From Pyrinomonas methylaliphatogenes (GTDB taxonomy: Bacteria; Acidobacteriota; Blastocatellia; Pyrinomonadales; Pyrinomonadaceae): a DNA stretch of 64,000 nucleotides. The notes below the pieces were generated by a model that saw nothing but the letters and a program-made list of their open reading frames with translations, searched no databases and was not told the DNA's origin. Shown here piece by piece: positions 17,591-34,163 of the stretch (its first letter is position 1; the number at the start of each line of letters is the position of its first letter). The stretch covers positions 124,082 through 188,081 of the forward strand of contig NZ_CBXV010000007.1 in the NCBI RefSeq assembly GCF_000820845.2. The letters run 5' to 3'. The translations under genes and the position numbers were made by a program.

Positions 17591-17620
17591 ACTCCTTTTC
17601 AAGCGCGCTTGAAAAGGAGT
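17591..17620 (-). terminator. Intrinsic terminator of the crcB fluoride riboswitch
   Basis: A perfect 30-base palindrome (arm ACTCCTTTTCAAGCG) is followed on the minus strand by TTTTCGTATTT. Its first arm shares ACTCC with the 3' end of the aptamer, so ligand-bound aptamer folding competes with termination. Confidence 0.85.
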
Positions 17621-17671
17621 CATCAATCTCGATCTGGCGACCGAGATGGTTATACGGCGAACTCCATCGCC
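17615..17671 (-). ncRNA. Fluoride riboswitch 1 (crcB motif)
   Basis: On the minus strand the aptamer opens with GGCGATGGAGTTCGCC. ATAACC follows, then a P3 stem-loop (ATCTCG pairing with CGAGAT), and it closes with TGATGACTCC. The order GGnGATGG-stem, TAACC, stem, TGATGnCTCC is the fluoride (crcB) riboswitch signature. It lies between a promoter and crcB, the family's classic target gene. Confidence 0.92.
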
Positions 17672-17690
17672 CCGAATTTTCGCTCCATAA

Positions 17691-17718
17691 TTTTTAGACG
17701 GTGAGGCGGAAATGTCAA
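17691..17718 (-). promoter_or_regulatory. Promoter of the crcB operon
   Basis: Read on the minus strand, TTGACA (17713-17718) is followed by a 16-base spacer and TAAAAA (17691-17696). The predicted start near 17684 leaves room for the whole aptamer. The IS end at 17731 lies 13 bases beyond the -35 box. Confidence 0.7.
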
Positions 17719-17730
17719 TGGGAAGCGAAA

Positions 17731-17753
17731 CCTGACCGCTTATCAGTTTTGAG
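17731..17753 (+). repeat. IS left terminal inverted repeat
   Basis: This 23-bp sequence, starting CCTGACCGCTTATCAG, is repeated exactly in inverse orientation at 18989-19011. Confidence 0.92.
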
Positions 17754-17848
17754 AAGACATCAGCCACTTGAATAGCCTGATGCGCGGTGGCGGTAAGTGC
17801 TGGCGCACGAACTTCTCTGTGAGTCGCACCTTTGCAGTTACCTAATGC

Positions 17849-18790
17849 TCATTTCATCTGCCAATAGTAAGCGCCGATCCGCACCAGCGAGAGTCGTCCC
17901 CCTTTCTGCTTACACTTCAAGCGCACGGCGGGTTCTTCCCGTTCAACTGCACTGCCGACTGTTGTCCATAGCAAGATGGCGACGCCGACGAGCATAAACA
18001 TGCGTTCGACAAACTCCGCTTTTGTCGACTGTCTCTACTTCAACTTCAGCCTGAAACGCACGCCCTTCGTATCTCGGAACTGTTCTTCAATCTCCATGGT
18101 CATCAAGCCCGGCAATTCTATTGGTTAAGTTAAGTTCGTTGCCGACCATCCTCTCTTTTTTGCATGCCTGTTTCACACGCCAATGATTCGCACCTGCACA
18201 AACTCATCTACTCTAGACCACTCCAAAGTCACGATGAGAGCCGCGTTTGAGCTTGATGTGCTTGAGAATTTGTGCTCGCTCAGGCAGATGCACCGTCACA
18301 TCACCTTGCCGCCGGACAACAAAATCCTGCGCCAATGCAAGCAACTTCCCCAGCCATGCGACACGATGACAGCCTCTATCGCATAACCAGACTGCTCGCA
18401 CTTGCGCAAGGCGTAAGAACACATCGCCGCAGGAAGATCTCTTCCCATCTGTGACCGCGCCAGTTGTCACAGGCTGAGGCGGCAACGGGAGTAGCCCGTG
18501 TGCCGACACACACTGAGGCGCTGAGCACGGAAAACCGGTCTTGCCACGCCGTCCAGTCCAGCTGGAGTCAAGAGGCTGCCAGAGGTCCTTTCGTCTCTAC
18601 CAACCGTCAGACATCAGCATGTTCGCTCTCAAGGGATTACGTTTCCGCACATCAGCGCGGGTCGTGCCAGCAGGCGTCGCATCTGTTGCGGTCAACAGCC
18701 AGGTGTCGAACCGAGTGTGACGTCCAAAGCGGTAGAGGCGCGTTAATGCCGAGCCAAACTGCACTTGCGTTAAGCACACCGGCGAGCGGC
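17849..18790 (-). pseudogene. IS4-family (DDE) transposase, degraded
   Basis: Minus-strand translation gives pieces of an IS4 transposase in different frames. LDWTAWQDRFSVL with SVCVGTRATPVAASA is the first-Asp region near 18480-18570. VWLCDRGCHRVAWLGKLL followed by DFVVRRQGDVTVHL is the second-Asp region near 18300-18420. MEIEEQFRDTKGVRFRLKLK is the Glu region near 18040-18105 and runs into a stop, and the last piece ends AYYWQMK at 17849. At least one nonsense codon and frame changes separate the pieces, so no active enzyme is made from this copy. Confidence 0.8.
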
Positions 18791-18988
18791 GAAACTAGAG
18801 GCTTGAGCAGCCTGACAGAGAGCGGCAATCAGCGCGGCGCAGGTTGATGCAAGCGAGCGGCGGAAGGGTCTTCACAAAGAAGCAAGGATGGGGCAAGTTC
18901 GCAACGGGTTCATGGCTCTGTCTCCGGTAAAAGTAGTGGCTTGGCAACTTTACTTTTACCACAGACCTTGAAACCTTCTTATTCTTGC

Positions 18989-19011
18989 CTCAAAACTGAT
19001 AAGCGGTCAGG
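18989..19011 (-). repeat. IS right terminal inverted repeat
   Basis: Exact reverse complement of 17731-17753. Confidence 0.92.
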
Positions 19012-19259
19012 GTAAAGAACCTATTGACAGGAAGGGGGACCCGGAATAGAATCTGCGCCGTCGTTGCTAGCCTCACATTTCTGGAGAGTCGCTGGGAATA
19101 GGTAGCCTCCCTCGCGCGGATGGCGCAGGCTGGCAGGGACACAAGAGAAAAGAAGATCGCGCTTTGGCCGTGTGGTCGGCTACACGCGCGTTTGCAACGG
19201 TAGAGTTCTACGATTCTTCGGTTGTTCAAAGCAGCCGACCTCACCTAGCGGAGGATTCT

Positions 19260-19367
19260 ATGTTGCGAAAGTCAGTGCGTCGTTTCCTTGCGTGTTTGGT
19301 TAGTCTTTCCATGATCTTGCTTTCCGTCGGCGTTGGTCCAGTAACTTACGCCCCCCCCGCAAACTGA
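19260..19367 (+). CDS. Signal-peptide leader of the Rhs protein, out of frame by one base
   Basis: ATG 19260 has GGAGG six bases upstream. It encodes a textbook signal sequence (LRKSVRRFLACLVSLSMILL with a VTYA cleavage site), then stops after 35 residues. The stop follows a run of eight C at 19351-19358. One more C would put the leader in frame with the Rhs body. The frame between the tract and 19418 is then fully open (RKLSAKDKASASKRP...) and joins GAQQTTPEDQ of the Rhs frame. CCTCACCTAGC precedes the start and recurs before the 62-residue membrane-protein gene at 24510. The leader belongs to the Rhs gene; the break is either phase variation or a sequence error. Confidence 0.8.
   Translation: MLRKSVRRFLACLVSLSMILLSVGVGPVTYAPPAN
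19351..19358 (+). repeat. C8 homopolymer at the leader/Rhs junction
   Basis: Eight consecutive C lie directly after the signal-peptidase site region. A nine-C tract makes leader and Rhs body one continuous frame; eight C gives a stop eight bases later. Confidence 0.85.
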
Positions 19368-19417
19368 GTGCCAAAGATAAGGCAAGCGCTTCGAAAAGGC
19401 CGTGCTCGCCGTGTTCT

Positions 19418-21799
19418 TTGGGTGCACAGCAGACCACACCTGAAGATCAAACTCTTGCTTCGCTGGAAGCATTGGCGGTGTTGGGGCGGCGCACACAACC
19501 CGCTCCGTTGCTGACCACCGTCAGGACGGCGTTTGAAGGAGCACGAGTCAATTTTGTCAGCACGGCGCGCGGCGATCTGGCATTCTCGATCATCGATCTG
19601 CAAATTCAAGGGGCGATGCCGCTCTTCTTCCAACGGGTTTACACGAGCGACGGCGAAGATCGGGGGATGGGACTCGGTTGGTCGTTCGGTTTCGATGATC
19701 GAATCTCGGTTCAAGGCGATCGCGCCGTGATGAAGACCGGCGGCGGCGCGACGTTGAACTTCGTGCGACAAAACGGCGCCCGCTTCGTGCTCGAAAGACC
19801 GGAGCCAGGGCAGCATCAAGCTTTCGATCTGCTCGAGGGAAAGATCACTGAAGAGATCGCCGATTTGCCTGGCTTGGTGCGAACCTACCTTCCAGCAGGC
19901 GGCGAGTATCTTTTGACCGAGGTCGCCGATGCGAACGGCAATCGGATAACGATCAATCGGGACGCAAACGGTCGCATCCTCTCGCTTGAAACCGGAGGTG
20001 CGAGGATCGATTTCGAATGGTCTTGGGGGCTGACTGGGCATTTGATGTCGGTCAGAGACCACGCGGGAAGGCGGGTTTCATTCCGGTATAGCAACAGGCT
20101 TCTGAGCAGCGTCATCGATGCCGCCGGTGCAGAGTGGAGATACAAGTATCAGGCGAATCGTCTGACGCGAGTGGTCGATCCCGAAGGGCGAACAGTGTTG
20201 AAAGCAAGGTACGATGCCTTGTCGGGGCGCGTTCTGCAGACAAGCGATGCTGTGTCGGTCTACGATTACAAGTACGACAACAACGGTCCCGCTCCATCGC
20301 GGCGAACGTTGGTGACCGATCCGCTTGGCGTGCAGCAGGTTTACGAGCACACGGCGGATGGATTGCTCATCAGGGTGAGCGACGCGGATGGGGAGATCAT
20401 GCGCGTCGAGTACAGTCAAACCAACCGTCCGGTGCGATTGGTGGATAGCGCTGGGAACGAGACGCAAATCGCTTACGACGCGCAGAACAGGATCATCCGG
20501 CAGAGGATATCGGATGGAACCGAGAAAACTTTTTCCTACGATGCGCGCGGTCGCTTGGTGAGCAAGGCACAAGGATCCGTGCGCATCGACTACGTGCTAG
20601 ACGACAAAGCGAACGTCATCGAAACGCGCAGCACCGATGCGAGCGTGAACTACCGAGCGCGCTACGACGAGCGCGGGCGGCTCGTTTCGCTGACCGCCAG
20701 CAGTGGGCGAACCTACGGCTTTGAGTACGACTCGTTGGGCAACGAGCGGGCGTTCATCGACCCACAACTCGGACGCTTCACAACAGAGCGAGACGCGCTG
20801 GGCCGCATGGTGGCCGATCGTTTGCCATCCGGTTTAACGTTCAACTACGAATACGATGCGCGCGGCTGGTTGGTCAGGGAGCGCGATTCGCAAGGTCGTG
20901 CCGTGGCATTGGAACGAGATGCAAGCGGCATGGTGAAGAAGCTGACCACAGCGCAAGGAGCTTGGGTTGCTGCCGAGCGCGACGAAGCCGGGCGAATCAT
21001 CAAGCTGACTAACTCGGCAGGCATGACACGGCGGTTCCGCTACGATGGACGCGGTGCCTTGACCGAGTACGTGGATGCGCGCGGGAGGGTGAAGCGGATG
21101 GAGTATGATCGGCGAGGGCGGTTGAAAGCCATCTCGGACGATCAAGGAAACCGTGTGACGGTCGAACGCGATCAGAGCGGGAAGATCACGCGGCTTGCGA
21201 TGAACGATGGCCGTCGCTATCGAATCGAGCGCGGCGCTGATGGTCACGCTGTTGCGATCAAGCCGGAGGGCGGCGAGGTTAGGTTCGAGCGGGCGAGCTA
21301 CGCGAAGAGACCAACGCTGCAGGATCTCACATGGTGGGACTGCATGTTCTCCCCGTGGCAAGATGGCTGGAGCAGTTGGTACCAGCCGCTCTACGATATG
21401 GGATACGATTTCGTCTACGATTGTTCTGATCCATTCGGCTGGGGCCTGGGTGGCGACTACTTGGGCGATCCGTTCGCAGGTGGGCCCTGTGAGACTAGAG
21501 AGCAGTGTGAGCGGCGAAAACGAGATTACTGTAATCAAATGTATGAGTGTGGTTGGGACGCTGGAACGAGGATAGTCGGAGGCATGGCATTCGGTACAAC
21601 TGGGTGTGCGATAGCGGCTGGGTTTTCTGGGCCTGGAGCTCTCGGGGTATTGGGGACATGTGAACTGGGTGTGTTGTTTGGTTCAGCAGGCATGGCAGGC
21701 GTGGAATACGTGTTGTGCGTGCGGAGTCGCCAACTCTGTTTGAGCAGTGTAGGTGAAGAATGTATGGACAAGCCAGATGTGTGCCCACCGCGGCAGTAA
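19418..21799 (+). CDS. Rhs/YD-repeat protein with a cysteine-rich hydrophobic tip
   Basis: The 793-residue frame starts only at a TTG without a ribosome site, so its true start is probably the leader at 19260. Residues about 35-140 match the DUF6531-type N-terminal Rhs domain (GDLAFSIIDLQIQGAMPLFF, MGLGWSFGFDD). YD repeats fill about 150-625 (FNYEYDARGWLVRE, FRYDGRGALTEY and others). A Trp/Tyr-rich seam follows (WYQPLYDMGYDFVYDCSDPF), then a 110-residue tip with paired Cys and Gly/Ala-rich hydrophobic stretches (GTTGCAIAAGFSGPGALGVL), ending CMDKPDVCPPRQ. It is short for an Rhs shell and lacks a recognisable nuclease tip. A surface or secreted protein with a membrane-active effector is my inference. 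Confidence 0.8.
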   Translation: MGAQQTTPEDQTLASLEALAVLGRRTQPAPLLTTVRTAFEGARVNFVSTARGDLAFSIIDLQIQGAMPLFFQRVYTSDGEDRGMGLGWSFGFDDRISVQGDRAVMKTGGGATLNFVRQNGARFVLERPEPGQHQAFDLLEGKITEEIADLPGLVRTYLPAGGEYLLTEVADANGNRITINRDANGRILSLETGGARIDFEWSWGLTGHLMSVRDHAGRRVSFRYSNRLLSSVIDAAGAEWRYKYQANRLTRVVDPEGRTVLKARYDALSGRVLQTSDAVSVYDYKYDNNGPAPSRRTLVTDPLGVQQVYEHTADGLLIRVSDADGEIMRVEYSQTNRPVRLVDSAGNETQIAYDAQNRIIRQRISDGTEKTFSYDARGRLVSKAQGSVRIDYVLDDKANVIETRSTDASVNYRARYDERGRLVSLTASSGRTYGFEYDSLGNERAFIDPQLGRFTTERDALGRMVADRLPSGLTFNYEYDARGWLVRERDSQGRAVALERDASGMVKKLTTAQGAWVAAERDEAGRIIKLTNSAGMTRRFRYDGRGALTEYVDARGRVKRMEYDRRGRLKAISDDQGNRVTVERDQSGKITRLAMNDGRRYRIERGADGHAVAIKPEGGEVRFERASYAKRPTLQDLTWWDCMFSPWQDGWSSWYQPLYDMGYDFVYDCSDPFGWGLGGDYLGDPFAGGPCETREQCERRKRDYCNQMYECGWDAGTRIVGGMAFGTTGCAIAAGFSGPGALGVLGTCELGVLFGSAGMAGVEYVLCVRSRQLCLSSVGEECMDKPDVCPPRQ
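21369..21511 (+). repeat. Rhs tip seam, copy 1
   Basis: This DNA segment codes for the WYQPLYDMGY...CETREQC seam. It recurs at 22527-22696 and partly at 25861-25969, with long identical blocks. Sequence diverges immediately after it, so it marks the boundary where tips have been exchanged. Confidence 0.88.
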
Positions 21800-21809
21800 T
21801 TTCTTACAT

Positions 21810-21851
21810 GAGACCAGTCTCCAATCAAAAAGTTAACTGGAGACTGGTCTC
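21810..21851 (+). terminator. Perfect 14-bp hairpin after the Rhs gene
   Basis: GAGACCAGTCTCCA (21810-21823) pairs perfectly with TGGAGACTGGTCTC (21838-21851), 10 bases past the Rhs stop. There is no U-tract. A comparable perfect hairpin follows orphan tip 2. Confidence 0.6.
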
Positions 21852-21900
21852 TAACTCGAGCAAATTGCGGACCAAGGTAACTTAACGGAGGTAATTAACG

Positions 21901-22296
21901 ATGAGGATCTATTTCTTCGGACTTATGTTTGCTACTTCATTGTTAGCAATCGTGGCTGCCGTCAGTGCGCTCACGAAAAAGGATGAGCTCGGTCGAGCAA
22001 AAATCAAGTTTTTGTTGTCACTAGTCGCCGCTATCTTCATTAATTTTCTGTGGGCAGTTATACCAAAAAGGATGCCATTTCGCGAGATGGAAATAGATCC
22101 AACATTGGTTTCCTCGCCTAGGCTTCTCGAGCAATATTTGTACGAGACGCACAAGACTCTGGAGCGGACCCTCGAAGTGCTTGACCTTACCATGACGTGT
22201 CTCGCACTGTCGTCTATAGCGTTTTTCTCATACAAATTCGGTCTTTATTGGACGCTCAGAAAAGAGCGCAAAGCGAAGGAAAAGCTCAATGACTAA
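21901..22296 (+). CDS. Small membrane protein, candidate immunity protein A
   Basis: The 131-residue protein has TM segments at about 4-24 and 35-55 and a third near 98-116. Between them is a soluble loop with SSPRLLEQYLYETHKTLERT then LEVLDL. The loop resembles that of protein B (23175): an acidic Asp, then PxRLxExL, then a Thr-x-x-Val-Leu segment. GGAGG precedes ATG 21901. Its position directly after the Rhs tip is the usual place for a cognate immunity gene. A membrane immunity protein would fit a membrane-active tip. Function is inferred from layout only. Confidence 0.65.
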   Translation: MRIYFFGLMFATSLLAIVAAVSALTKKDELGRAKIKFLLSLVAAIFINFLWAVIPKRMPFREMEIDPTLVSSPRLLEQYLYETHKTLERTLEVLDLTMTCLALSSIAFFSYKFGLYWTLRKERKAKEKLND

Positions 22297-22468
22297 TGTG
22301 CTTGATGATTTGGTCGCTCAGCATAACTGTTCTTGGCAAGCCACGGTGTTTGAGGGGATGGAAGCTGAGGTTGAGAAGCAAATTGTCAATGATGAATTAG
22401 GGGAAAAGATTGAGATGCTTCTATCTCTTGGATGTATGTCGGAAAAAGAGGAGACCCCTTTGCTGTAG
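22289..22468 (+). CDS. 59-residue acidic protein overlapping gene A
   Basis: The start ATG overlaps the stop of the preceding gene (ATGACTAA). The product is soluble and acidic, with a Cys at each end (AQHNCSWQATVFEGMEAE and LLSLGCMSEKEE). I do not recognise it. The overlap and ordinary amino-acid make-up suggest it is a real coupled gene, possibly a second immunity component, but a chance frame is possible. Confidence 0.4.
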   Translation: MTNVLDDLVAQHNCSWQATVFEGMEAEVEKQIVNDELGEKIEMLLSLGCMSEKEETPLL

Positions 22469-22513
22469 CGGGAGATGCTATCAGTGGCATGTTGATGATG
22501 AGTATTTGCACCG

Positions 22514-22990
22514 TTGGTTGATGTGCGGAGCAATTGGTACCAGCCGCTCTACGATATGGGATACGATTTCGTCTACGATTGTTCCGATCCATTCGGCTGG
22601 GGCTTTGGTGGCGGCAGTTGGTGGGGAAGCGGCATCGGCGGCTACTGGGGCGATCCGTTCGCAGGTGGGCCCTGTGAGACTAGAGAGCAGTGTGAGAATC
22701 GAATCAGGGCAGAAGCGGATAGAGTGTACCAAAACTGTATAAATCAGATAGCCTTTAGCGGCGTAATGACCATAATCCAGTTCCAGGTTACTGCCTGTAG
22801 AGTAACCCTGGCGGCAGGGGCAGTAGGTGGTCCAGAGGCTAGGATCGGAGCCGGGCTATTACTCGATGTTGGTCTCACCTTGGGAGCCATACTTGATTGG
22901 TGCCGCCAAGTTGGAAACTGTATTGACCAGCAGGATCAAGTCTTAGCCCGATTGGTTGAGTGTCAAGGCAAACCGGAAAGATGCCCCTAG
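22514..22990 (+). pseudogene. Orphan Rhs C-terminal tip 2
   Basis: This 158-residue frame begins inside the Rhs seam with no ribosome site: the seam comes first (NWYQPLYDMGYDFVYDCSD, GWGFGGGSWWGSGIGGYWG, CETREQCENR), then a different tip. The tip parallels tip 1 in design: Cys-bearing N-terminal helix, hydrophobic Gly/Ala-rich middle (ACRVTLAAGAVGGPEARIG, GAGLLLDVGLTLGAIL), a closing Cys pair in CRQVGNC, and an end CQGKPERCP like CMDKPDVCP of tip 1. It is a displaced alternative C-terminus that could be expressed only after recombination into the Rhs gene. The intact frame argues it is preserved rather than debris. Confidence 0.75.
22527..22696 (+). repeat. Rhs tip seam, copy 2
   Basis: Near-identical to 21369-21511, but with an extra Gly/Trp-rich block (GGGSWWGSGIGGYW) that copy 1 lacks and copy 3 has. 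Confidence 0.88.
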
Positions 22991-23013
22991 ATAGATTTGG
23001 GAAGTTCAAAAGT

Positions 23014-23053
23014 AGACTCACGATTGGCGATATGAATCGCCAATCGTGAGTCT
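23014..23053 (+). terminator. Perfect 18-bp hairpin after orphan tip 2
   Basis: AGACTCACGATTGGCGAT (23014-23031) is followed by the loop ATGA and its exact complement (23036-23053), 23 bases past the tip stop. There is no U-run. It mirrors the hairpin after the Rhs gene. Confidence 0.65.
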
Positions 23054-23174
23054 CATAGCGAAAACTATGTGCTATGTATAGAGCTTCCAAAGCAAGAGCA
23101 ATCTTGTCGCTCTCGTGAAGCGGAGCATAGAATTCGATTTATGCAAGCCATTTCTTGGTAATTGAGGTGAAAGT

Positions 23175-23582
23175 ATGGGTTCCACTAAATGGATCTATGT
23201 TCCTCTCATCATTTCGCTCGTAGCCCACTTTGCTTTTTTTCTCTATACCGCTTCGAAGAAAGAGGTCGATCCCTTCCAAAGACGGATCAAGTGTAGCGAG
23301 ATTGCCGTCTCTTCCATCATGTTTGCTTGCCTTATCTTCTTGTTTTCGCTTCCGAGCGCGGCAGCTTTTGAGGCGTTTGGTAAGTATGCTTATGATGTTG
23401 AAACCGTGAGGGATCCGCAACGATTGGCGGAAATCCTACGAGAACATAATCTCTACATTGCTAGAACAATAGAGGTACTGCGTTTAATGATCTACTGCTT
23501 TGTTTTCCCGCTGTTAACCACTCTTCTCGCTTTGTTGAACATGATCGGGCTTCTTTATAGAAAGGGAAAAGGTGAAAAGTGA
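23175..23582 (+). CDS. Small membrane protein, candidate immunity protein B
   Basis: The protein has 135 residues with TM helices at about 6-25, 46-64 and 101-124. The loop between the last two contains AFGKYAYDVETVRDPQRLAE and then ARTIEVLRLM. The block SLPxA...FGK...DPQRLxExL...N...TIxVxR is shared with the decayed gene at 25351-25702, so the two are paralogues. GAGGTG precedes ATG 23175. It follows orphan tip 2 as expected for that tip's immunity protein. No known immunity family is recognised. Confidence 0.65.
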   Translation: MGSTKWIYVPLIISLVAHFAFFLYTASKKEVDPFQRRIKCSEIAVSSIMFACLIFLFSLPSAAAFEAFGKYAYDVETVRDPQRLAEILREHNLYIARTIEVLRLMIYCFVFPLLTTLLALLNMIGLLYRKGKGEK

Positions 23583-23704
23583 TTCTGAACGATCAATTCA
23601 AGATAGGAATCGCAGATGGAGTAATAACTTTGCAGTTTTGCGCGAATATAGCTGATATGAATCTGGACGGGCCGATAGGAGATATATGTAGATTCTCTGA
23701 TTAG
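23579..23704 (+). CDS. 41-residue frame coupled to gene B
   Basis: A GTG start overlaps the stop of gene B (GTGA). The product is short and soluble (NDQFKIGIADGVITLQFCAN near the start, DICRFSD at the end). The arrangement parallels the 59-residue gene after gene A. It could be real or a fragment; support is weak. Confidence 0.3.
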   Translation: MILNDQFKIGIADGVITLQFCANIADMNLDGPIGDICRFSD

Positions 23705-23716
23705 TGGAGGGCAATC

Positions 23717-24091
23717 GTGTTAGAAAAAGTTTTGATTGGCCTTACTGTTTCGTTGGTTCTTTATTCGGTCGGTATGATTCGCTATCTTATTCCCTACTTT
23801 TTCCAAACAGAGATCGTCAAGCCAAACCGATTAATGAAGCTTTTCAATGTCTCTTTGATTGTGGCGGTGATAAGCTTGGTGGTCCTTTGGGTCGCGATAA
23901 ATGTACTGCTAGGGAGACTAGAGGATTGCTTGGTTCTCAATCGGCCTGATTCCATTTCTGAAGTGGATTACTGGATCCGGGTGAAAATGATTTTCAATCT
24001 AGCAGTCTTCGCGTATCTCGATTTTATTGCCCTAACACTCTTTATGATCATCAGAGTTCTCAGGACATCGTGGACGGAAAAAATTAAATAA
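23717..24091 (+). CDS. Three-helix membrane protein D, unknown
   Basis: GTG 23717 has GGAGG six bases upstream. The 124-residue protein has TM segments at about 7-27, 45-65 and 98-117, the same plan as proteins A and B. A Cys-containing loop (LEDCLVLNRPDSISEVDYW) replaces the DPQRL motif. It may be a divergent member of the same group, or an unrelated small membrane protein carried in the array. Confidence 0.6.
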   Translation: MLEKVLIGLTVSLVLYSVGMIRYLIPYFFQTEIVKPNRLMKLFNVSLIVAVISLVVLWVAINVLLGRLEDCLVLNRPDSISEVDYWIRVKMIFNLAVFAYLDFIALTLFMIIRVLRTSWTEKIK

Positions 24092-24509
24092 TCTCTGTGA
24101 GATTGCATGCTTGAGATTGTACGTTCGATCCGTGTGAGAAGTGTACCTTCTCGCAACGCCTCAGCTTTAGCGACAGAGATCATGTCTTTAATATTGTTTT
24201 TCTTCAAGTTAAAGAGGATGGAAAAGATAAGGCAAGGAACGCCGAAGAGATTTGAGCACTGAGTCACTGTATACAAACATAAAAAAGAAGCGTTTCGAGC
24301 GCTAGTCTGTTTCTGCCAAAATGGAGACATTGCGTGACGCAAAACTAGCTATTTGTTGTTCCAACTCTTCGAAGGTTTCCTCGTGAAGGGAAGCAAGACA
24401 ATCGGTTAGCAAGTACTCAAAGAGCGTTGGATAAGTATTCACGACGCAATTAATCTTGGTTATGGTGAGGAGCCAAACTCTCCTCACCTAGCCAAAGGAG
24501 GATAGTTCT
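24092..24509. other. AT-richer gene-free stretch with hairpins
   Basis: No convincing gene is visible. GAGAAG/CTTCTC forms a small hairpin near 24138-24155. GGTGAGGAG (24464-24472) pairs with CTCCTCACC (24480-24488) just before the 24510 gene and its AAGGAGG site, so it may affect that gene's translation or end upstream transcripts. Confidence 0.4.
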
Positions 24510-24698
24510 ATGAAGAGTGACATTCAACCCTTCACCAGGATTCTTTGGGTCTGGGTGGGAGCTTTTATTGGATGGTTGTTAGGGGTCGGCTTTGACGGAA
24601 GCGCAGAAAAGATGCGGGATGTTATCTTCTTCATCAAACTCGCGTTACTTGCATGCATTCTGAATTATCTTTTCATAAGGTATAAAGGAAAGAGTTGA
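24510..24698 (+). CDS. 62-residue two-helix membrane protein
   Basis: ATG 24510 is preceded by AAGGAGG. The product has TM helices at about 11-29 (ILWVWVGAFIGWLLGVG) and 40-57 (FIKLALLACILNYLF) and a Lys-rich end. The leader shares CCTCACCTAGC with the Rhs gene leader, suggesting duplicated upstream DNA. Function is unknown; it sits among putative immunity genes. Confidence 0.5.
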   Translation: MKSDIQPFTRILWVWVGAFIGWLLGVGFDGSAEKMRDVIFFIKLALLACILNYLFIRYKGKS

Positions 24699-24862
24699 AT
24701 GGTTCAGGCTTGCTATTGTTTTAGAAACATCGAACTTTAGCTCTTACGCGCTACTGGATAAGGATCAGTCGTGTATAAATCGGAGTCTGGGAAATTAGGC
24801 GGCATGAACGCCTATGACAGATAAAGAGAAGCCATCTTAAAAAAACACGGGGTAGTTGCTAA

Positions 24863-24976
24863 GTGATCGGAAAAACCAAGGAGATTGTCTGCCCTGATGG
24901 CGTTGAGGTGGTTATTACGAGGTTAGGAAATAAGATCCCTCGTCTACTGAAGCATAACGATCAAACACATCGGTGA
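24863..24976 (+). CDS. 37-residue frame, doubtful
   Basis: A GTG-started frame codes for a short basic peptide (KEIVCPDGVEVVITRLGNK in the middle). It may be a remnant of a larger soluble protein. No ribosome site is evident. It is listed because its composition is protein-like, unlike nearby debris. Confidence 0.2.
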   Translation: MIGKTKEIVCPDGVEVVITRLGNKIPRLLKHNDQTHR

Positions 24977-25000
24977 GATAGAATAAAAAGGAGCGTAATT

Positions 25001-25258
25001 ATGAAGGATTGGATTATTTTCAACACCCTATCCATCAGAACTCTTCTGGGAATGACAGTTATCTTTTGGTTGGCGATGTTGGTGTTGATTAGTTTGCGTG
25101 GGAGAGAGCATAAATGGTTGAAGCGATTTTTGATCATCTTGTTATTCTTCAATTGGTTATCAGTAATGATTTCCCCCACGCTGCTCGGTGACAAGATCTT
25201 TGCTACGCTTCTACTGCTTACAACGATCATATTTGCAAAGCGCAGAGCTGAAGTTTGA
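25001..25258 (+). CDS. 85-residue membrane protein
   Basis: ATG 25001 follows AAGGAGCG at a good distance. Three hydrophobic segments are visible: LLGMTVIFWLAMLVLISL, FLIILLFFNWLSVMI and FATLLLLTTIIFA. Basic residues between the first two would favour cytoplasmic placement. The family is unknown. It is another small membrane protein of the Rhs-associated array. Confidence 0.5.
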   Translation: MKDWIIFNTLSIRTLLGMTVIFWLAMLVLISLRGREHKWLKRFLIILLFFNWLSVMISPTLLGDKIFATLLLLTTIIFAKRRAEV

Positions 25259-25350
25259 AAGTCATTTCTTTAGTCGTTAGGCATCGATGGGGCACCGTGT
25301 GCCTCGCTCTATAGACGGAAGCGATCGATGTGACATAGGAGACGACAGAG

Positions 25351-25702
25351 ATGGCTACAACATAGATCTTGCTACTCATCATCGGTACGGGTGAACTAAT
25401 ATGGGCTTTTCACATACGGGCCAAAGAAAAAGAACAAACTTAAAAGGGCTACCAAGGCGATATTGATGCTCACAAAGGGGCTGCAAGCCAGTTTCCTTGT
25501 TTTGTTCGCTTCGTTGCCGCAGGCTTCTATCCTAGGTAGCTTCGGGAAACCTCTATCGGCTTTTGATATGCAAGATCCGCAGAGGTTGTTGGAATATCTC
25601 CAATTGTACAACGAGTCGTTGGTTCAAACCATCAACGTAATGCGCATTTTGATCATTCTGCTGTTGTTCGGACTTGGAGGAGTGCTCGGTATATGCTACT
25701 GA
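25351..25702 (+). pseudogene. Decayed paralogue of immunity protein B
   Basis: Reading from ATG 25351 gives MATT, a TAG stop, then ILLLIIGTGELIWAFHIRAK. After a one-base frame change it continues KLKRATKAILMLTKGLQASF, ASLPQASILGSFGKP and MQDPQRLLEYLQLYN, and ends in a final TM segment with a stop at 25702. These parts align in order with protein B (23175-23582), including SLP, FGK and DPQRL. One nonsense codon and one frameshift have therefore disabled a second copy. An ATG at 25466 could still express the C-terminal two thirds, but nothing supports that. Confidence 0.65.
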
Positions 25703-25822
25703 GCGCTCAGAGATATGCAAGTCGTTCTGAAGGATGAGGCAGTGGAAAAGAAAACAGGTTGAGAGCGTCTCGACTAGACTGTCTCAAAAGATGCATGTCT
25801 CAATCAGATCCTCAGACTTGCG

Positions 25823-26014
25823 ATGCTAGATAGAATTCCGGCTACAGTTTACAATTGCACGGACCCATTCGGCTGGGGCTTTGGTGGCGGCAGTTGGTGG
25901 GGAAGCGGCATCGGCGGCTACTTGGGCGATCCATTCGCGGAAGGGCCCTGTGAGACTAGAGAGCAGTGTAGGAAGAGAGTTCTTCGAGGGAAGCGCAGCA
26001 GGCGCTGTTTATGA
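25823..26014 (+). pseudogene. Truncated orphan Rhs tip 3
   Basis: The frame carries only the second half of the seam (YNCTDPFGWGFGGGSWWG and CETREQCRKR) and then ends after a short basic tail. In another frame, 26007-26030 again encodes VYDCADPF, a further copy of the seam core. This is the decayed tail of the array: seam preserved, tip lost. Confidence 0.65.
25861..25969 (+). repeat. Rhs tip seam, copy 3
   Basis: The segment is almost identical to the 3' two thirds of copy 2, including the WWGSGIGGY block. The upstream part of the seam is missing. Confidence 0.85.
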
Positions 26015-26291
26015 TTGCGCTGATCCGTTCTTCCTTGGGCGGTGCCGCGCTTGAGTGAGGTGGGGGAACCGATCGCGAATTGGTTTACGCCATATTCAGC
26101 CGTGACATGACAACTAAGAATGCTGACACGCGCTTAACTGAAAGAGGGTTGACGTGAAGAGACGTGGCTGTTGAAAGACGGATGCGCGAACCAGGCGACG
26201 ACTCATCGATAGTAGAACCTAGAAGGCTTGAAGGGCTTTTCAAGAGACGCTTCGGCTGACGTTATCGTTGAAATGCTCGCAATGTTTACGT

Positions 26292-26389
26292 TATTTTGCT
26301 GATCGACGGTATGAGCTGAAACGCGGCGTCTACGATCGCAAGCTGTTGCGCCGTCTACTATTTTGCTGATCGACGGTATAGACTGAAAC
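26292..26389. CRISPR. Two-repeat CRISPR-like remnant
   Basis: A 31-base repeat starting TATTTTGCTGATCGACGGTA and ending CTGAAAC lies at 26292-26322 and 26359-26389, differing at two positions. The single spacer is 36 bases (26323-26358). Repeat length, spacer length and the GAAAC end fit CRISPR repeats. There are no cas genes in the window, and neighbouring sequence holds no further clear repeat, so this would be a relic or an isolated mini-array. Confidence 0.55.
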
Positions 26390-26410
26390 CCTAGATAGTT
26401 GGGGGCGACT

Positions 26411-26992
26411 ATGTCACGTCTCTTTCGATTTGGAGCGAAAGTTTTCAATATCAACTTCTGGAGTTTCCTTTTGGGCATCTGCGTAGGCGTGACGCTTTGC
26501 GTCGTCGGTTTCCTCAGCCTAGCTATTCTGGGCATGTTGTTGGCCGTTTACGCGCCGGGGCGGATTGCGCCTCCGACGGTGAGCAAGGTGACGCCGAGTC
26601 ATGATTCCTATCCGCCGCCCCGCTTGCCTATGATAAGGCGAGCTGACTACAGCTGGAAGGTCAGTTCGCTAGATGGGCGTGAGCTGGATTTAGCCGGATT
26701 TCGAGGTAAGGTCATTTTTCTCAACGTATGGGCGACGTGGTGTCCGCCTTGTGTCAATGAGATGCCGAGCATCGAGCGTTTGTACGAGCAGGTGAAGGAT
26801 GAAGGGATTGTTTTCATCTGCGCTTCTGCGGAGGATCGGGAAACGGTCCGTCGTTTCGTTTAGGAGCACGGTTACAAGCTGCCAATCTACACTTTCGCGG
26901 GGGAGCCGCCGGAAGTTTTTCGCGCCGAAGCAGTACCAACGACGTTCATCATCGCGCCAGATGGGACGATCAATCATGCGTTGAATTCCTAA
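26411..26992 (+). pseudogene. TlpA/ResA-like membrane thioredoxin with in-frame amber stop
   Basis: The frame opens with a TM segment (FLLGICVGVTLCVVGFLSLA). A thioredoxin-like domain follows: GRELDLAGFRGKVIFLNVWA, then ATWCPPCVNEMPSIERLY with the CxxC active site. At 26861-26863 a TAG interrupts RRFV and EHGYKLPIY. The same frame then continues through AVPTTFIIAPDGTI, with the cis-Pro, to a TAA at 26990. The end is also shorter than usual. It looks like a periplasm-facing thiol reductase inactivated by one nonsense change, unless the base is a sequence error. Confidence 0.75.
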
Positions 26993-27184
26993 CAAGGCTT
27001 TTGACTGAAGGTGGCGAGAAACACTAGGGTTCTGTTATTAACGATATCTTGTTCGTTCCCAGGCATTGTCACCTAAGGTTAGGGCATCCAGCGCTCTTGA
27101 TTGTTAACAATATCAGGCTCGCTCGTCTTATTGCTCTCTATGAAGTTACGCAGCGAGGCGGGAATGTCCATAAGGGCGCGGGTA
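26993..27184. other. Gene-free stretch before riboswitch 2
   Basis: No gene is seen. It is AT-richer than the flanks and contains near-repeats of TAACGATATC / TAACAATATC at about 27037 and 27106. Confidence 0.3.
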
Positions 27185-27214
27185 TTGACACGTTCACCAG
27201 TGACGCGAAATAAT
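27185..27214 (+). promoter_or_regulatory. Promoter of the antiporter operon
   Basis: TTGACA (27185-27190), an 18-base spacer and AATAAT (27209-27214) lie just upstream of the second fluoride aptamer. Confidence 0.7.
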
Positions 27215-27225
27215 AATCGCGAAAA

Positions 27226-27276
27226 GGCGATGGAGTTCGCCTAAGAAGCGTCCAAGAATTTGGACTGATGACTCCT
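27226..27276 (+). ncRNA. Fluoride riboswitch 2
   Basis: The aptamer has GGCGATGGAGTTCGCC, identical to riboswitch 1, then TAAGAA, a P3 hairpin (GTCCAA pairing with TTTGGAC) and TGATGACTCCT. The joining segment departs slightly from TAACC. It lies between promoter and terminator, ahead of an antiporter gene, a known target class for this riboswitch. Confidence 0.88.
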
Positions 27277-27309
27277 GCATCGTGAAAGCGGTGTGGGAGT
27301 TTTTATTTT
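27271..27309 (+). terminator. Intrinsic terminator of riboswitch 2
   Basis: ACTCCTGCATCG (27271-27282) pairs along its whole length, with G-U wobbles, to CGGTGTGGGAGT (27289-27300) and is followed by TTTTATTTT. The ACTCC arm belongs to the aptamer as well, giving the on/off switch. Confidence 0.88.
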
Positions 27310-27341
27310 GGGCCAGATGTCGATCGCAGGAGGTCTAGAAT

Positions 27342-28544
27342 ATGGCTCAAGTATGGTTTCTCGCCTCCATTTGGGTTGGGCTGGCTTTGATTGCCGTACT
27401 GCTTGCCATAAAGCTACGCATTTCGACGGCGCTTTCTGAAATCATCGTCGGCACGGTCGCACAGCTCGTCATCGGAGCGACGATCGGCGCGACCTTTCTT
27501 GGCGCGCAGCAACCGTGGATCACTTTTCTCGCTGGCGCGGGGGCCATCGTGCTGACGTTTTTGGCCGGAGCGGAATTGGATCCCGAAGTCATCACTTCGC
27601 GTTGGAAGGAGACGGCGATCATCGGGCTGGCGGGTTTCTTCGCTCCCTTTCTCGGGTGCGCAGCCATCGCGCGCTATCTCCTTCACTGGCCCACGAGGCC
27701 TTCATGGTTGGTCGGAGTCGCCCTCTCGACGACTTCCGTGGCCGTCGTTTATGCCGTCATGTTAGAGCTCGGATTGAATCACACTTCATTTGGCAAGACC
27801 ATCCTCGCGGCTTGTTTCGTGAACGATCTGGGCACGGTCATCGCGCTCGGTCTGATCTTCGCGCCATTCACGCTGAGGACAGCGATCTTTGTCATCATCT
27901 CCATCATCGTCTTCGCGATTTTGCCGTGGCTGACGCCGCGTTTCTTCCGCCGCTACAGCAATCGAGTTTCGGAGCTCGAGGCGAAATATCTGCTCTTTCT
28001 CCTCTTCGGCATGGGCGGATTAGCGGCGTGGGCGGAGAGCGAAGCGGTTCTACCGGCCTATCTGATCGGGATGGTGTTGGCGGGCACGGTAGGCAAGGAC
28101 CATGTTTTGATACGACGATTGCGGACTTTGACCTTCGGTCTATTGACGCCTTTCTACTTCATTCGCGCTGGTTCTTTCGTGTCGATCCCCGCCCTGCTCA
28201 GCGCGCCACTTACATTCATCATCCTGTTTCTGGCGAAATCTCTGACGAAGTTCATCGGAGTGTTTCCCACAACGAAGATCTATCGCTACGGTAAGGAGGA
28301 AGGGATTTACACGACGCTTCTGATGTCAACGGGACTGACTTTCGGAACGATCTCCGCGCTTTTCGGTCTTTCGCATGGCATCATAGATCAAGCGCAATAC
28401 TCCTACATCGTGGCGACGGTGATCGCCAGCGCTGTCGTGCCGACCATGATCGGCAACGCTTTCTTCCTTCCGAGACATCTTCTGCCGACGATGTCGGAAT
28501 CGGAGCGCGAACCGGAAGTCGTCGGTTCATCAACCACGCTTTGA
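27342..28544 (+). CDS. CPA2-type cation/proton antiporter under fluoride control
   Basis: This membrane protein of 400 residues has about 12 hydrophobic segments and no C-terminal nucleotide-binding domain. FLAGAELDPEVI (TM3-4) and LAACFVNDLGTVIALGLIF (TM5 with an Asn-Asp pair) are the ion-binding core motifs; GLTFGTISALFGLSHGIID lies near the C-terminus. Asn-Asp rather than Asp-Asp is usually linked to electroneutral exchange. AGGAGG precedes ATG 27342 and a fluoride riboswitch-terminator controls the leader. Antiporters are a recognised class in fluoride regulons, perhaps to restore internal pH or cation balance after HF entry. Stop and next gene are 11 bases apart. Confidence 0.9.
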   Translation: MAQVWFLASIWVGLALIAVLLAIKLRISTALSEIIVGTVAQLVIGATIGATFLGAQQPWITFLAGAGAIVLTFLAGAELDPEVITSRWKETAIIGLAGFFAPFLGCAAIARYLLHWPTRPSWLVGVALSTTSVAVVYAVMLELGLNHTSFGKTILAACFVNDLGTVIALGLIFAPFTLRTAIFVIISIIVFAILPWLTPRFFRRYSNRVSELEAKYLLFLLFGMGGLAAWAESEAVLPAYLIGMVLAGTVGKDHVLIRRLRTLTFGLLTPFYFIRAGSFVSIPALLSAPLTFIILFLAKSLTKFIGVFPTTKIYRYGKEEGIYTTLLMSTGLTFGTISALFGLSHGIIDQAQYSYIVATVIASAVVPTMIGNAFFLPRHLLPTMSESEREPEVVGSSTTL

Positions 28545-28555
28545 GGAGGTGCGAG

Positions 28556-28972
28556 ATGTTACAGCGAATTCTTGTCGCCTTTGATGGTTCGGAGCAATCA
28601 CGCAAAGCTTTCGATCTCGGGCTTGAGATCGCTGACAGGTTTCGGGCGAAGCTGCTGGTCGTCAGCGTCATTCAACTGCCTGAGCCAGCCACCTCAGTCG
28701 AGATCGCCGAGTTGCTGGATCGTGAACAAGAGCATCTGTTAGGCGAGATGGCCCATTTGCGGAAGCGAGCTGAAGAGTTCGGCATCGAGCTCGAAACGCA
28801 TATCGCTGCAGGGCACCCGGCTGAACAGATCATTCGCTATGCCGAAGATTGTCGGGCTGACATGATCATCATGGGACGACGCGGAAGGACGCGCGTTACG
28901 CGATGGATCTTAGGTTCGATTTCTGAAAGAGTTTTACGTTACGCGCATTGCCCTGTAACCGTCATCAAATAG
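28556..28972 (+). CDS. UspA-type universal stress protein
   Basis: This is a single Usp domain of 138 residues. It opens with LQRILVAFDGSEQSRKAFDL. The ATP-binding signature is MGRRGRTRVTRWILGSIS (GxxGx9GS), and it ends HCPVTVIK. GAGGAGG lies six bases before ATG 28556; the TTG at 28541 overlaps the antiporter stop and is less likely. Co-transcription with the antiporter puts it under fluoride control. Usp proteins are cytosolic ATP-binding stress factors, and pairing with a transporter is common. Confidence 0.92.
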   Translation: MLQRILVAFDGSEQSRKAFDLGLEIADRFRAKLLVVSVIQLPEPATSVEIAELLDREQEHLLGEMAHLRKRAEEFGIELETHIAAGHPAEQIIRYAEDCRADMIIMGRRGRTRVTRWILGSISERVLRYAHCPVTVIK

Positions 28973-29022
28973 AGAGCAAGATCGCGCCGCATGGGGAACG
29001 ATCGGGGGCGAAGGAATATGGA

Positions 29023-29052
29023 TTGCGTCGCTCGGATCGAGCGATTTAAAAT
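29023..29052 (+). promoter_or_regulatory. Promoter of the VWA operon
   Basis: TTGCGT (29023-29028), an 18-base spacer and TAAAAT (29047-29052) lie upstream of the third aptamer. Confidence 0.55.
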
Positions 29053-29068
29053 GAAGGTAAAAGTTCAG

Positions 29069-29117
29069 GGTGATGGAGTCCACCATCAACCACTGCGATC
29101 GGCAGTTGATGACTCCT
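29069..29117 (+). ncRNA. Fluoride riboswitch 3
   Basis: GGTGATGGAGTCCACC (P2 with compensating GGTG/CACC changes) is followed by ATCAACC, a P3 hairpin (ACTGC pairing with GCAGT) and TGATGACTCCT. The arrangement is the same as in riboswitches 1 and 2. Paired-base changes that keep the helix argue for a functional RNA rather than a recent copy. Confidence 0.88.
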
Positions 29118-29160
29118 ATTTCGAAGCTTAACTGGGTTTCGGAAAGGAGTTCTTCTTTTG
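29112..29160 (+). terminator. Terminator / ribosome-site hairpin of riboswitch 3
   Basis: ACTCCT plus TTTCGAA (after one bulged A) pairs with TTCGGAA plus AGGAGT (29138-29150), then TCTTCTTTT. The 3' arm is also the AAGGAG ribosome site of the next gene, so the hairpin could block transcription and translation together. Confidence 0.75.
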
Positions 29161-32100
29161 CGTCAATCGGAAAGAGCACAAAGACTCGATCCTCCGCGCG
29201 AAACTGTTCCGCCTCAGAACTTCGCTGTGAAAGAGTGGTTCGCGCACATCGCCGCCAAACGTGAGCGGATAGAATGTTGGCAACGTGCAGCGTGCGGTTG
29301 GTCGCAGATTTCATTCCATTCGTTCGATTCGGCCTTGGATTTCCTCCGCGCTTTTCGGCGCATCTTGCTCCGGCTCAATCCGGCAGATTCCATCCGTTGG
29401 ATTGACTGTAGCGTCAGACTAGCGCGTGTCGATGCCTCGTTGGCCGCGGAATTCTTCCGCATGGGCACGGACGTCATCCTTCACGCGCCATCTTCGCTGC
29501 GTTCTCACCTTCTCGCGCTATGCATCAACGTGACGCAGATCTATGGCCGCGATGCGATGCTCGATTGCCTGCGCGCGGCCATGGCCATTACGGAAGGGTC
29601 GAGCGATCAGGATGTGAGTGCGCGATTGATCGAAGTGGCGCTCAAACTCAGCTACGGGTCGCTCGGCTACTGTTGCGCGTTCCTGCAACAGGCAACGAGA
29701 ACTATTCGGCAATGGGAGGCGAAAGGTGAAGCTCACAAAAGCTTCTCGCTTCATTTGCTCGACTTCGTCGGGCGATTGCCAGTAAAGCTCGCCGTGGATC
29801 TGTTTGAGGCTTCCTTACCATTGCTCGAGCGTGCGGAGACTGGAAGCCCGCTCGCGGTGACGCTCGGCGAACGGTTGATACAACACACGGAAAGATTCAT
29901 CGCCGTTGATGATGACGGTGCGGTTCGCTTCTTCATCTGTGGCGCGAAGCTTGCTCGGCTCGAAGATGTAACTTTGATCGATAAGTGGGCGGCGCTTTGC
30001 GATCGATTCGCCAATGTCGAAGGCGCGGCTTTCCACAATTTCACGACGCTGGCTGAAGGAGCGACCGAAAACTTAGTTGCGCTCGCTTTGACGCATGGTA
30101 GCGAGGGGAAGGCGGCGGTTATGGCTGCGCTCGACAGCGCCCAGCTTGTCGCCGAGCGCAGCATAGTTGCGGCGAGCAAGTGTTACGAGATGAGTTCGGC
30201 TTTGCTCGCGCGGCTGTCAATTGACGCTTATCGTGATTGGGTGAAGCGCGGACTCGCCTCATTTGCCGAAAGCAACAAGCTCATCGCTTATTTCGCTGCG
30301 GAATCGCGCGCCAGTCAGAAGGCGATCGCCGAGACCTCCGATACGTTACGGTTAGAAGATGTGCTGCCTGTGCTCAAGCGGTATATCAGTATGTTAACCG
30401 GAAAAGAACTCCCTCTCATTGCGAGACCGCAGAAGTGCGATTTGCTCGAACCGGAGTCGGATGAAACGATCGGTTTGCCACCGACAATCGTCGGCTTAGG
30501 GAGCGCAGAAGAGCGATTTAGATACTACAAGGTGCTCGCCGCGCAGCGAGCTGGCCAGATCGAATTCGGCACCCATGAGATGGAAACGGAGCGGTTGCGC
30601 GCGCTTGGTTTGGAACTGTGCCGTAGATTCGCTCATCGCCCGCCTGCTTCTTTGAATGGTGAGACGGATTGGCGCACGCTCATCAATATCTTTCCGCAAA
30701 CAGCGCTTGCGCGGCGCCTCTTCATAATCCTCGAGAATGCACGCATCGAGCATCTCCTGCGTGTGCGCTATCGCGGGTTGCGTCGTGATTTGGATTGGGC
30801 ACAAACGCTTCCGAAGCGTGCACGTCCGCTGGACCAATACATTTTGAAATATGAGCCGTTTCTCGAACTGCTTTTCGTCGAGGCGCTCGGCTCGGGAGCG
30901 AGAGGCGTTCTCGATGAAGAGAAGCGCGCATGGACGGAGAAAGTAAGGGCAGTGCTAGCCGCTTATGTGCGCAAGGATGGGGCGAACGTCGCCGACACGA
31001 TCCGCGCTTGCTTGGAGCTTTACGAATATCTCGATCCCGAAGATCCAGAAAATGCTCTGCACTGGGAGAACGAGCGGCGTCGAGACGTATCGCCGAGGTC
31101 CGAAAAAGGGAAGGGAATGGAAGATGTAGAAGGACAAGATGGCATCGGAGAAATGCTGAGATTTGAAGGTCGGAGAGGAGATGCTGGGCAGATTCGCGCA
31201 CGACCGTTAGCTCAGGCTGCTTGGGGCGCACCAGCCACAGACTTGCAGGTCGGCGCTGCGATGGGAGGCGTCGCTCAGCCGCTCGACGATGTGCGTTTGC
31301 CTAACGCCTTTTACTACGACGAATGGGATGCGCGTATTGGCGATTACCGCCCACGTTGGTGTCGTGTGATCGAGCGCGAATGGCGAGCGGATGACCGCAA
31401 TTTCGTGAAGCGCGCGCGTGCCGAGTACGCGGGATTAATCAAACAAGTGCGCAACCGTTTTCAACTCCTACGGCCCGTCGGGTTAAGGCGCGTGCGCGGG
31501 CAGGTTGATGGAGACGAGATCGATCTTGAAGCGGCGATTGAATATGTCGTCGACCATCGCGCGCATCGCACCCCATCGGATCGAATCTATGTCGAACGGC
31601 AGCGCCGCGAACGCGAAACGGCGGTCTGTTTCCTCCTCGATATGTCCGGTTCGACGAGCGCGCGCATCGCGGCAAACAAGCGCGTACTCGACGTGGAGAA
31701 GGAGGCTTTGCTGCTGATGAGCGAAGCGCTCGAGGCACTCGGCGACGCTTATGCCATCTACGGCTTTTCGAGCAATGGGCGGACTAGCATCTCCTTTTAC
31801 CGGTTCAAGGATTTCGATGAGCCCTACAGTGAATTGATAGCCGATCGCATTGGCGGAGCGAAGTGGCTAGCCAACACGCGGCTCGGCGCTGCGATTCGGC
31901 ATGCGACGCGGCGATTAAACGAACAATCTGTGGCGACGCGTTTGCTCATCATTTTGAGCGACGCGCAGCCGACCGATGACGAATATAGCGATGCGCACTA
32001 CGCGCGCGAAGATACGCGCGTCGCTTTGACGGAGGCACGTGCTAGCGGCGTCTTCCCTTTTTGCATCGCCTTTGATCTCAGGGGCGATACGCAACTTGAT

Positions 32101-32196: not shown

Positions 32197-32248
32197 AATC
32201 GAGAGGATTGAGCAAGGTCGCACACGCCGCGGTCTCCGAGGGAAGCTG

Positions 32249-33130: not shown

Positions 33131-33159
33131 AGCGGCGCATGGCTCGATCAAGCTGAGCG

Positions 33160-33588: not shown

Positions 33589-33590
33589 AG

Positions 33591-34034: not shown

Positions 34035-34163
34035 ATTGAAGCTTTCGTGACCGCATCGAGCGAATCAGCCAGCCTCTCGTACCAATCGAGGGTTGGCTGT
34101 CCCGGTTCTGAACTCGTATCATTAGCTTTCATAGACGGTCTTCCAGAATGGCGAGGTGGTCTT

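Follow-up and report, generated by a model that had tools for sequence, protein, structure and literature searches.

The genome of strain K22, the type strain of the thermophilic acidobacterium Pyrinomonas methylaliphatogenes (PMC4644332), comprises 3,788,560 bases in 16 contigs; the window examined here is a single stretch of 64,000 nucleotides from it (C7:124082-188081). It carries one Rhs gene whose 3' end is followed by an array of repeated boundary sequences, gene tips and small membrane-protein genes (Table 1). We refer to the repeated boundary as the seam, to the coding sequence behind it as the tip, and to the small gene behind a tip as its partner (imm). The order along the forward strand is Rhs body, seam, tip 1, imm1, seam, tip 2, imm2, three further open reading frames (ORFs C, D and E), a relic of a partner gene termed immA, a third seam and a fourth copy of the seam core. 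The Rhs body has a G+C content of 58-60% and the array one of 41-53%. An initial annotation of this DNA had described an array of displaced Rhs tips sharing one seam; the small membrane-protein genes behind each tip are an addition to it.

Table 1. Features of the Rhs gene and of the array behind it, in window coordinates (position 1 is the first base of the window).
Feature	Position	Strand	Remarks
Start of Rhs gene: ATG ORF, ribosome-binding site, signal-peptide-like	19260..19367	+	signal peptide called by visual inspection
Rhs body with YD repeats and DUF6531; roughly half a canonical Rhs shell	19418..21368	+	PF05593, 181.6 bits; PF20148, 44.3 bits
Seam 1 (WYQPLYDMGYDFVYDCSDPFGWG...CETREQC), inside Rhs ORF	21369..21518	+	
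Tip 1, fused to Rhs body here, orphan in L017	21509..21799	+	
imm1, putative immunity gene for tip 1 (small membrane protein)	21901..22296	+	3 hydrophobic segments; ribosome-binding site -10.9 kcal/mol; tip 1 of L017 is followed by the same partner
Seam 2, start of orphan cassette 2	22514..22703	+	repeat match 22527-22703
Tip 2, orphan, open frame, no ribosome-binding site	22694..22990	+	
imm2, putative immunity gene for tip 2 (small membrane protein), related to L017 immA	23175..23582	+	
ORF C, candidate orphan immunity gene	23717..24091	+	4 hydrophobic segments; strong ribosome-binding site
ORF D, candidate orphan immunity gene	24510..24698	+	62 aa; 2 hydrophobic segments; strong ribosome-binding site
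ORF E, candidate orphan immunity gene	25001..25258	+	85 aa; 3 hydrophobic segments; strong ribosome-binding site
immA relic, frame-broken, counterpart of intact L017 immA	25352..25774	+	77% DNA identity to L017 1546-2076; two tblastn pieces in different frames
Seam 3, then collapsed tip	25821..25979	+	repeat match 25847-25974
Seam core 4 (VYDCADPF), relic	26007..26030	+	other frame

The initial annotation held that the seam is repeated downstream at 22527-22696 and 25861-25969, and a search of seam 1 against the whole window recovered both repeats (blastn; copy 2, E = 2e-47; copy 3 in two pieces, E = 5e-18 and 1e-6), the next match in the 64 kb being non-significant (E = 0.31). The third copy is where it had been placed, except that it begins about 14-40 bases earlier (25821, or 25847 for the repeat match) and that its core encodes VYNCTDPF. 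The fourth core that had been claimed, VYDCADPF, is likewise present. Across six frames of the 64 kb, the core VYDC[SA]DPF, with its variant VYNCTDPF, is found at exactly four places (at least seven of eight residues), and it is absent from all of 20 mononucleotide shuffles of the window, so that the four places cannot be put down to chance. As had also been noted, the sequence differs after each seam: seam 1 leads into tip 1 (to 21799), seam 2 into tip 2 (to 22990), and seam 3 into a remnant of about 15 residues which runs directly into core 4. Between imm1 and seam 2 lie about 198 bases (22318-22515) with part of a short open frame, which are missing at the same junction in the related contig L017 described below. 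A mobile element, named earlier as something that might account for seam similarity, was considered as the source of the seam and rejected because the array in the window showed no transposase ORF and because seam plus tip 2 occur at three places in the genome, all of them at this locus.

The Rhs gene has an 831-residue open frame; its ORF as listed (19418-21799) ends with tip 1. Its body matches the YD-repeat family PF05593 in nine stretches, as well as TIGR01643, and the DUF6531 N-terminal plug (PF20148, cut-off 24.1 bits); the body profile spans approximately half of solved Rhs cores (for example, residues 23-569 of 1077 in 8qjb). The RHS repeat-associated core TIGR03696 was matched in none of five short Rhs proteins, and the same library found it in all three other Rhs proteins or fragments of the K22 genome. 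The unusual boundary pointed out in the initial annotation thus extends to the absence of the whole Rhs-associated core. The boundary here is the seam, which is aromatic and glycine-rich and has two DPF motifs. By eye, these read DPFG-X18-DPFA in seam 2 and in the fused seam of L017, the spacing is X9 in seam 1 and X3 in the relative G026, and the final G is missing from the second motif in seam 1, seam 2 and the L017 seam. The self-cleavage boundary of Rhs proteins has two DPxG motifs spaced by 18 or 19 residues, and the protease motif of canonical Rhs proteins is given as DPxG-X18-DPxG (PMC10684867); the DPF pair may possibly be related to it.

The tips are hydrophobic, glycine-rich and cysteine-patterned, with at least six Cys, and tips 1 and 2 have Cys positions in common with a third, tipA, from L017. 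Tip 2 had been reported to lack a start, which is true in substance: it is open in frame from a TTG at 22514 with no ribosome-binding site. The ribosome-binding-site energies of orphan tip or seam ORFs range from +0.5 to -2.2 kcal/mol in all four cases (two in the window, two in L017). The partners differ from this pattern, as the five intact frames imm1, imm2 and ORFs C, D and E all have energies of -9.4 to -11.8 kcal/mol, against a 5th percentile of -8.3 kcal/mol at random positions; the TTG of the immA relic has -4.3. Elsewhere, values of -11.6 (L017 immA), -10.7 (L017 imm1), -13.3 (G011), -13.2 (G140) and -8.1 (G066) were obtained, and the G026 partner has 0.0 at its listed TTG and -9.3 at an inner ATG. 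All ten tip copies with a readable downstream region (two from the window, two from L017 and a single one from each of G026, G011, G013, G140, G066 and G077) are followed by a small ORF in which hydropathy alone gives two to four hydrophobic segments; an eleventh tip, tipX of L017, extends nearly to the contig end. imm1, imm2 and immA align as one family, and ORFs C, D and E have no relatives in the compared loci. A structure model of a partner is all helical (mean predicted local distance difference test score, pLDDT, 70.1). On hydropathy, the partners look like integral membrane proteins, and the tips form a Cys-rich, hydrophobic family, probably membrane-acting, that has no match in the libraries searched. 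Tip 2 matched nothing in 72,556 plasmid records, nor did the seam-tip alignment (A6) match anything in IMG/VR.

The decisive comparison is with L017, a metagenome contig of 3,367 bases whose Rhs body has 92% DNA identity to that of the window over 1,154 bases. Its order is body, seam, tipA, immA, seam, tip 1, imm1, seam, tipX. Tip 1 with imm1 is therefore fused to the body in the window and an orphan downstream in L017 (protein identity 80% for seam plus tip 1 and 79% for imm1), while in L017 the fused tip is tipA. At all three junctions (3/3) that the two sequences share, behind the body, behind imm1 and behind immA, the seams lead into different tips in the window and in L017. A mis-join in L017 is possible between its near-identical seams 1 and 3; such an error could conceivably swap tipA and tipX, but it could not place tip 1 on the body, because the seam before tip 1 differs from them (71-73%). 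Tips do get swapped between genomes. This agrees with the earlier proposal of Rhs tip replacement by recombination. The initial annotation had suggested looking for strains with tip 2 joined to the body; L017 is the mirror case, with tip 1, fused in the window, lying downstream as an orphan, and tip 2 itself was found fused nowhere. The ratio of nonsynonymous to synonymous substitution (dN/dS) between the window and L017 is 0.20 for the body, 0.51 for tip 1, 0.26 for imm1 and 0.18 for a 79-residue open piece of the immA relic, all as simple counts without a significance test, the value for tip 1 being based on 31 differences.

The seams carry a further signature. Over their left 87 nucleotides, window seams 1 and 2 agree at 83/87 positions and L017 seams 1 and 3 at 84/87, whereas only 72/87 agree between window seam 1 and L017 seam 1, and again 72/87 between window seam 2 and L017 seam 3, both of which stand behind imm1. 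Seam copies are thus 95-97% alike within a genome and 83% alike between genomes. Among the 17 variable sites in these four seams, 12 group by genome and none by position, and the identity of the bodies upstream, 91-100% per 100 bases up to position 21290, drops to 67/79 beyond it. From these informative sites and this drop we conclude that the seams have been homogenised within each genome, as expected of recombination passing through the seam. Seam 3, which is stranded behind the immA relic, resembles seams 1 and 3 of L017 (85.5-88.7%) more closely than it does the first two seams of the window (74-77%), as though an older seam allele had been kept there.

The body profile matched nine of 119 family genomes at E <= 1e-30; seven of these have short bodies with the tip family and two (G007 and G023) have long Rhs proteins. 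The tip profile (A5) matched seven of 162 class genomes, the same seven with short bodies; the profile had been built with rows from six of the seven, which leaves G077 as the sole independent match. In 396 phylum genomes A5 matched the K22 genome alone, although with 12 candidates scored per genome this search had limited sensitivity. The outcome named at the outset as one that would speak against replacement, with every homologue carrying the same tip and no orphan copies, was not seen, as six further relatives carry other tips. Orphan seams also stand behind the Rhs genes of G026 (L037 5014-5082) and G066 (L052 2836-2880), in the latter with a second partner fragment. In G026 the 5' end of the Rhs gene recurs in degenerate form after the orphan seam (L037 5136-5741; 75% to 1929-2540). 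Between the orphan seam and the second partner fragment of G066, and not at the seam, is a pair of transposase-like ORFs (L052 2929-4088), which we take to be IS3-like. A second case of tip exchange, in genus g26, was considered and rejected because G026 and G077 have the same tip type; with 67.7% DNA identity in the tip against 82% in the body, this pair represents faster tip divergence and not a swap. In G001, a congener of K22, 16.5 kb including the Rhs array (17,682-34,163) are absent and 130 bases stand in their place (L067 2563-2693). The array accordingly belongs to a region that varies between congeneric species, which is compatible with gain in K22 or with loss in G001.

In relatives the Rhs gene begins, by eye, with a signal-like stretch followed by CxxC in a single frame. 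In K22 a tract of eight C (19351-19358), the sole homopolymer run of at least eight in the 64-kb window, marks a change of frame between the signal-like start and the Rhs body. K22 was sequenced with 454 as well as Illumina, and this change is possibly an error of the 454 reads, a switch or a sign of a broken gene. For the mode of delivery, we found no match to the sheath gene VipB/TssC in the K22 genome with a positive E. coli control, other type VI secretion genes not having been searched for, and delivery of the Rhs protein by a type VI secretion system was rejected on this ground. A Pfam scan of the ORF from 19418 contained no PAAR domain, the 5' end upstream of the frame change having been inspected by eye only. 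A type II secretion system is reported in the K22 genome paper (PMC4644332). Judging from its start, the Rhs protein would depend on a signal peptide for its export, and not on a type VI system. Elsewhere in the K22 genome, two truncated canonical Rhs pieces (L034 8740-9750, and L036 3156-4190 on the reverse strand) have one core in common and end in different wall-acting domains, SLT-like (just below the cut-off) in one and glycosyl hydrolase 19 in the other; a contig break is nearby, and they are perhaps a second set of displaced tips. A 2243-residue protein (L035 1154-7885) joins a subtilase domain to RHS repeats.

Taken together, we consider it likely, at a probability of roughly 0.74, that the locus is a polymorphic-toxin array of toxin-immunity cassettes which diversifies by C-terminal displacement. 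Displacement itself is the firmest part of this reading and can be regarded as very probable; that the tips are toxins and their partners immunity proteins is likely; and that the tips act on membranes, as their hydrophobicity, their membrane partners and parallels such as ionophoric CDI (contact-dependent inhibition) toxins suggest, is slightly favoured. Under such a model, the one Rhs gene would give an exported body and would close at its 3' end with a conserved DNA seam, after which comes a cassette of tip and immunity gene. Homologous recombination between seams would load a new tip together with its own immunity gene, and the displaced pair would stay downstream, its tip silent for want of a start and a ribosome-binding site and its membrane protein still able to be made. 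We infer that partners retained in this way would protect against siblings with other tips.

Several observations weigh against this reading and call for caution. No tip or partner could be related above cut-off to a known toxin, pore-forming toxin or immunity family (Pfam, NCBIfam, PADLOC and PDB sequences), and the tip model, a helical hairpin, is of low confidence (pLDDT 54.7). Similarity of tips and similarity of partners are correlated over eight pairs by Pearson's coefficient (r = 0.76; 157/40,320 permutations), but the relation is weak by rank (Spearman 0.24, p = 0.21) and the Pearson value is carried by two close pairs, tip 2/tipA and G026/G011. The partner ribosome-binding sites are weaker in some relatives, such as G013 (-5.9) and G077 (-7.4). 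Owing to the frame change at the C tract, the Rhs gene may be off or dead in the K22 assembly, and those of G013 and G140 are likewise broken, within the body. Finally, L017 is filed under a bin named Ardenticatenia, an unrelated phylum, and as a metagenome contig it could have been misled in assembly by near-identical seams.

One alternative is that a single tip-partner pair was copied in place and drifted, with no incoming cassettes; the shared Cys positions of tips 1, 2 and A, and the single family formed by imm1, imm2 and immA, would allow one ancestral pair. Tandem duplication of this kind does not predict that a tip should be fused in one genome and orphan in another, that tips should differ at every common junction, that the array should have a G+C content so far below that of the body, or that ORFs C, D and E should lack relatives in the compared loci. 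It is largely refuted by L017, and we regard it as improbable. An equally improbable account takes the array as silent cassettes for surface variation, in which the tips would be ends of an adhesin or anchor and the small membrane genes export helpers. A signal-like start, a repeat body and silent downstream copies do fit antigenic-variation loci, as does the lack of a toxin-family match; however, helpers would be expected to be common to the cassettes, and every tip that can be read comes with a partner of its own, unlike the others in sequence, orphan partner-like ORFs with good ribosome-binding sites persist without tips, and wall-acting domains form the ends of the two truncated Rhs pieces at other sites of the genome.

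That the Rhs gene and its array are a graveyard without present function in K22 is unlikely, if somewhat less so. The frame change in the 5' end, the broken immA, the collapsed third tip and core 4 speak for decay, as does the absence of the whole 16.5 kb from the congener. The dN/dS values of the body and imm1 and the 831-residue open frame speak against it, and the C tract may be a length error of the 454 reads or a switch. Mis-joining of repeated seams by the assembler can be set aside almost entirely. The seams are near-identical over 87 nucleotides, and Rhs repeats are, among others, blamed by the genome authors for scaffold ends (PMC4644332); yet 454 reads with a mean of 492 bases (PMC4644332) exceed the seam, the immA-seam and imm1-seam junctions are present in both independent assemblies, and orphan seams were found in G026 and G066 as well.

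Displacement of toxin tips has close parallels. In enterobacterial Rhs loci, C-terminal displacement has left arrays of dissociated tips (Jackson et al. 2009, PMC2935791), and as described there, each tip carries along some body sequence, the array lies behind a single Rhs gene in DNA poor in GC, most orphans have no start, and the same tip can be fused in one strain and orphaned in a second. Core pieces within such a locus are also alike, so homogeneous seams are not new in kind. The enterobacterial genes differ in that their core is complete and a hyperconserved domain marks the boundary, where the K22 locus has a half-length body, an aromatic, glycine-rich seam and an acidobacterial host. 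The orphan cdiA-CT/cdiI and rhs-CT/rhsI modules of Poole et al. (2011, PMC3150448) combine a junction motif and orphan toxins without initiation signals with an orphan immunity gene that has a start and a Shine-Dalgarno sequence. The same traits recur here: a junction sequence begins each orphan and gives way to different sequence, tip 1 is fused in the window and orphaned in L017, and orphan tips lack the initiation signals that orphan partners have. The junction, however, is neither VENN nor PxxxxDPxGL, and the toxin role is a predicted one. Such cassettes are described as travelling in toxin-immunity pairs (PMC3482391).

Ionophoric CDI toxins, diverse helical toxins paired with a hydrophobic immunity protein (PMC11630599), and the Rhs pore former Tse5 (PMC10684867) have membrane-acting C-terminal domains, an action which the tips described here may share; no sequence relation to either was found, and the tips contain at least six Cys. 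Tse5 further differs as type VI cargo with a full shell and an aspartyl protease motif. In immunity-gene arrays of type VI clusters (PMC5361080) old immunity genes are kept downstream after effector replacement, but there whole effector genes are exchanged, whereas here it is the tip of one Rhs gene and no type VI system was found. We found no description of the locus in the literature retrieved for Pyrinomonas with Rhs, which is the genome paper alone, or for Rhs, Acidobacteria and polymorphic toxin; what sets it apart from the systems above is the half-length body, the different boundary, the tip family without a library match and the lack of a detected type VI sheath gene.

These results add a thermophilic acidobacterium, in which no type VI sheath gene was detected, to the hosts of tip displacement, and show a seam that is homogenised within each genome, with an apparent older allele left stranded. 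They also define a family of small, Cys-rich tips, each matched by a membrane partner, that is open to direct testing, and raise the question of how a half-length Rhs body without a core domain presents a hydrophobic tip. One might go further and propose a distinct class of polymorphic toxin, with a half-shell Rhs body, signal-peptide export without a type VI system, a possible switch at the C tract, disulphide-patterned membrane-inserting tips and a seam kept alike by gene conversion for reloading, although this proposal is tentative and we hold it to be doubtful.

Two fluoride riboswitches (RF01734) flank the array and face outward, at 17607-17680 on the reverse strand and at 27217-27284 on the forward strand; one precedes crcB and the other an antiporter-like gene. 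Just beyond core 4 are two copies of a 31-base repeat ending in CTGAAAC (26292-26322 and 26359-26389), spaced by 36 bases, which resemble a one-spacer remnant of a CRISPR (clustered regularly interspaced short palindromic repeats) locus; the genome has no more copies with up to two mismatches allowed. They are followed by a TlpA/thioredoxin-like ORF (26399-26863) that stops at a TAG, beyond which coding-like sequence goes on in the same frame.

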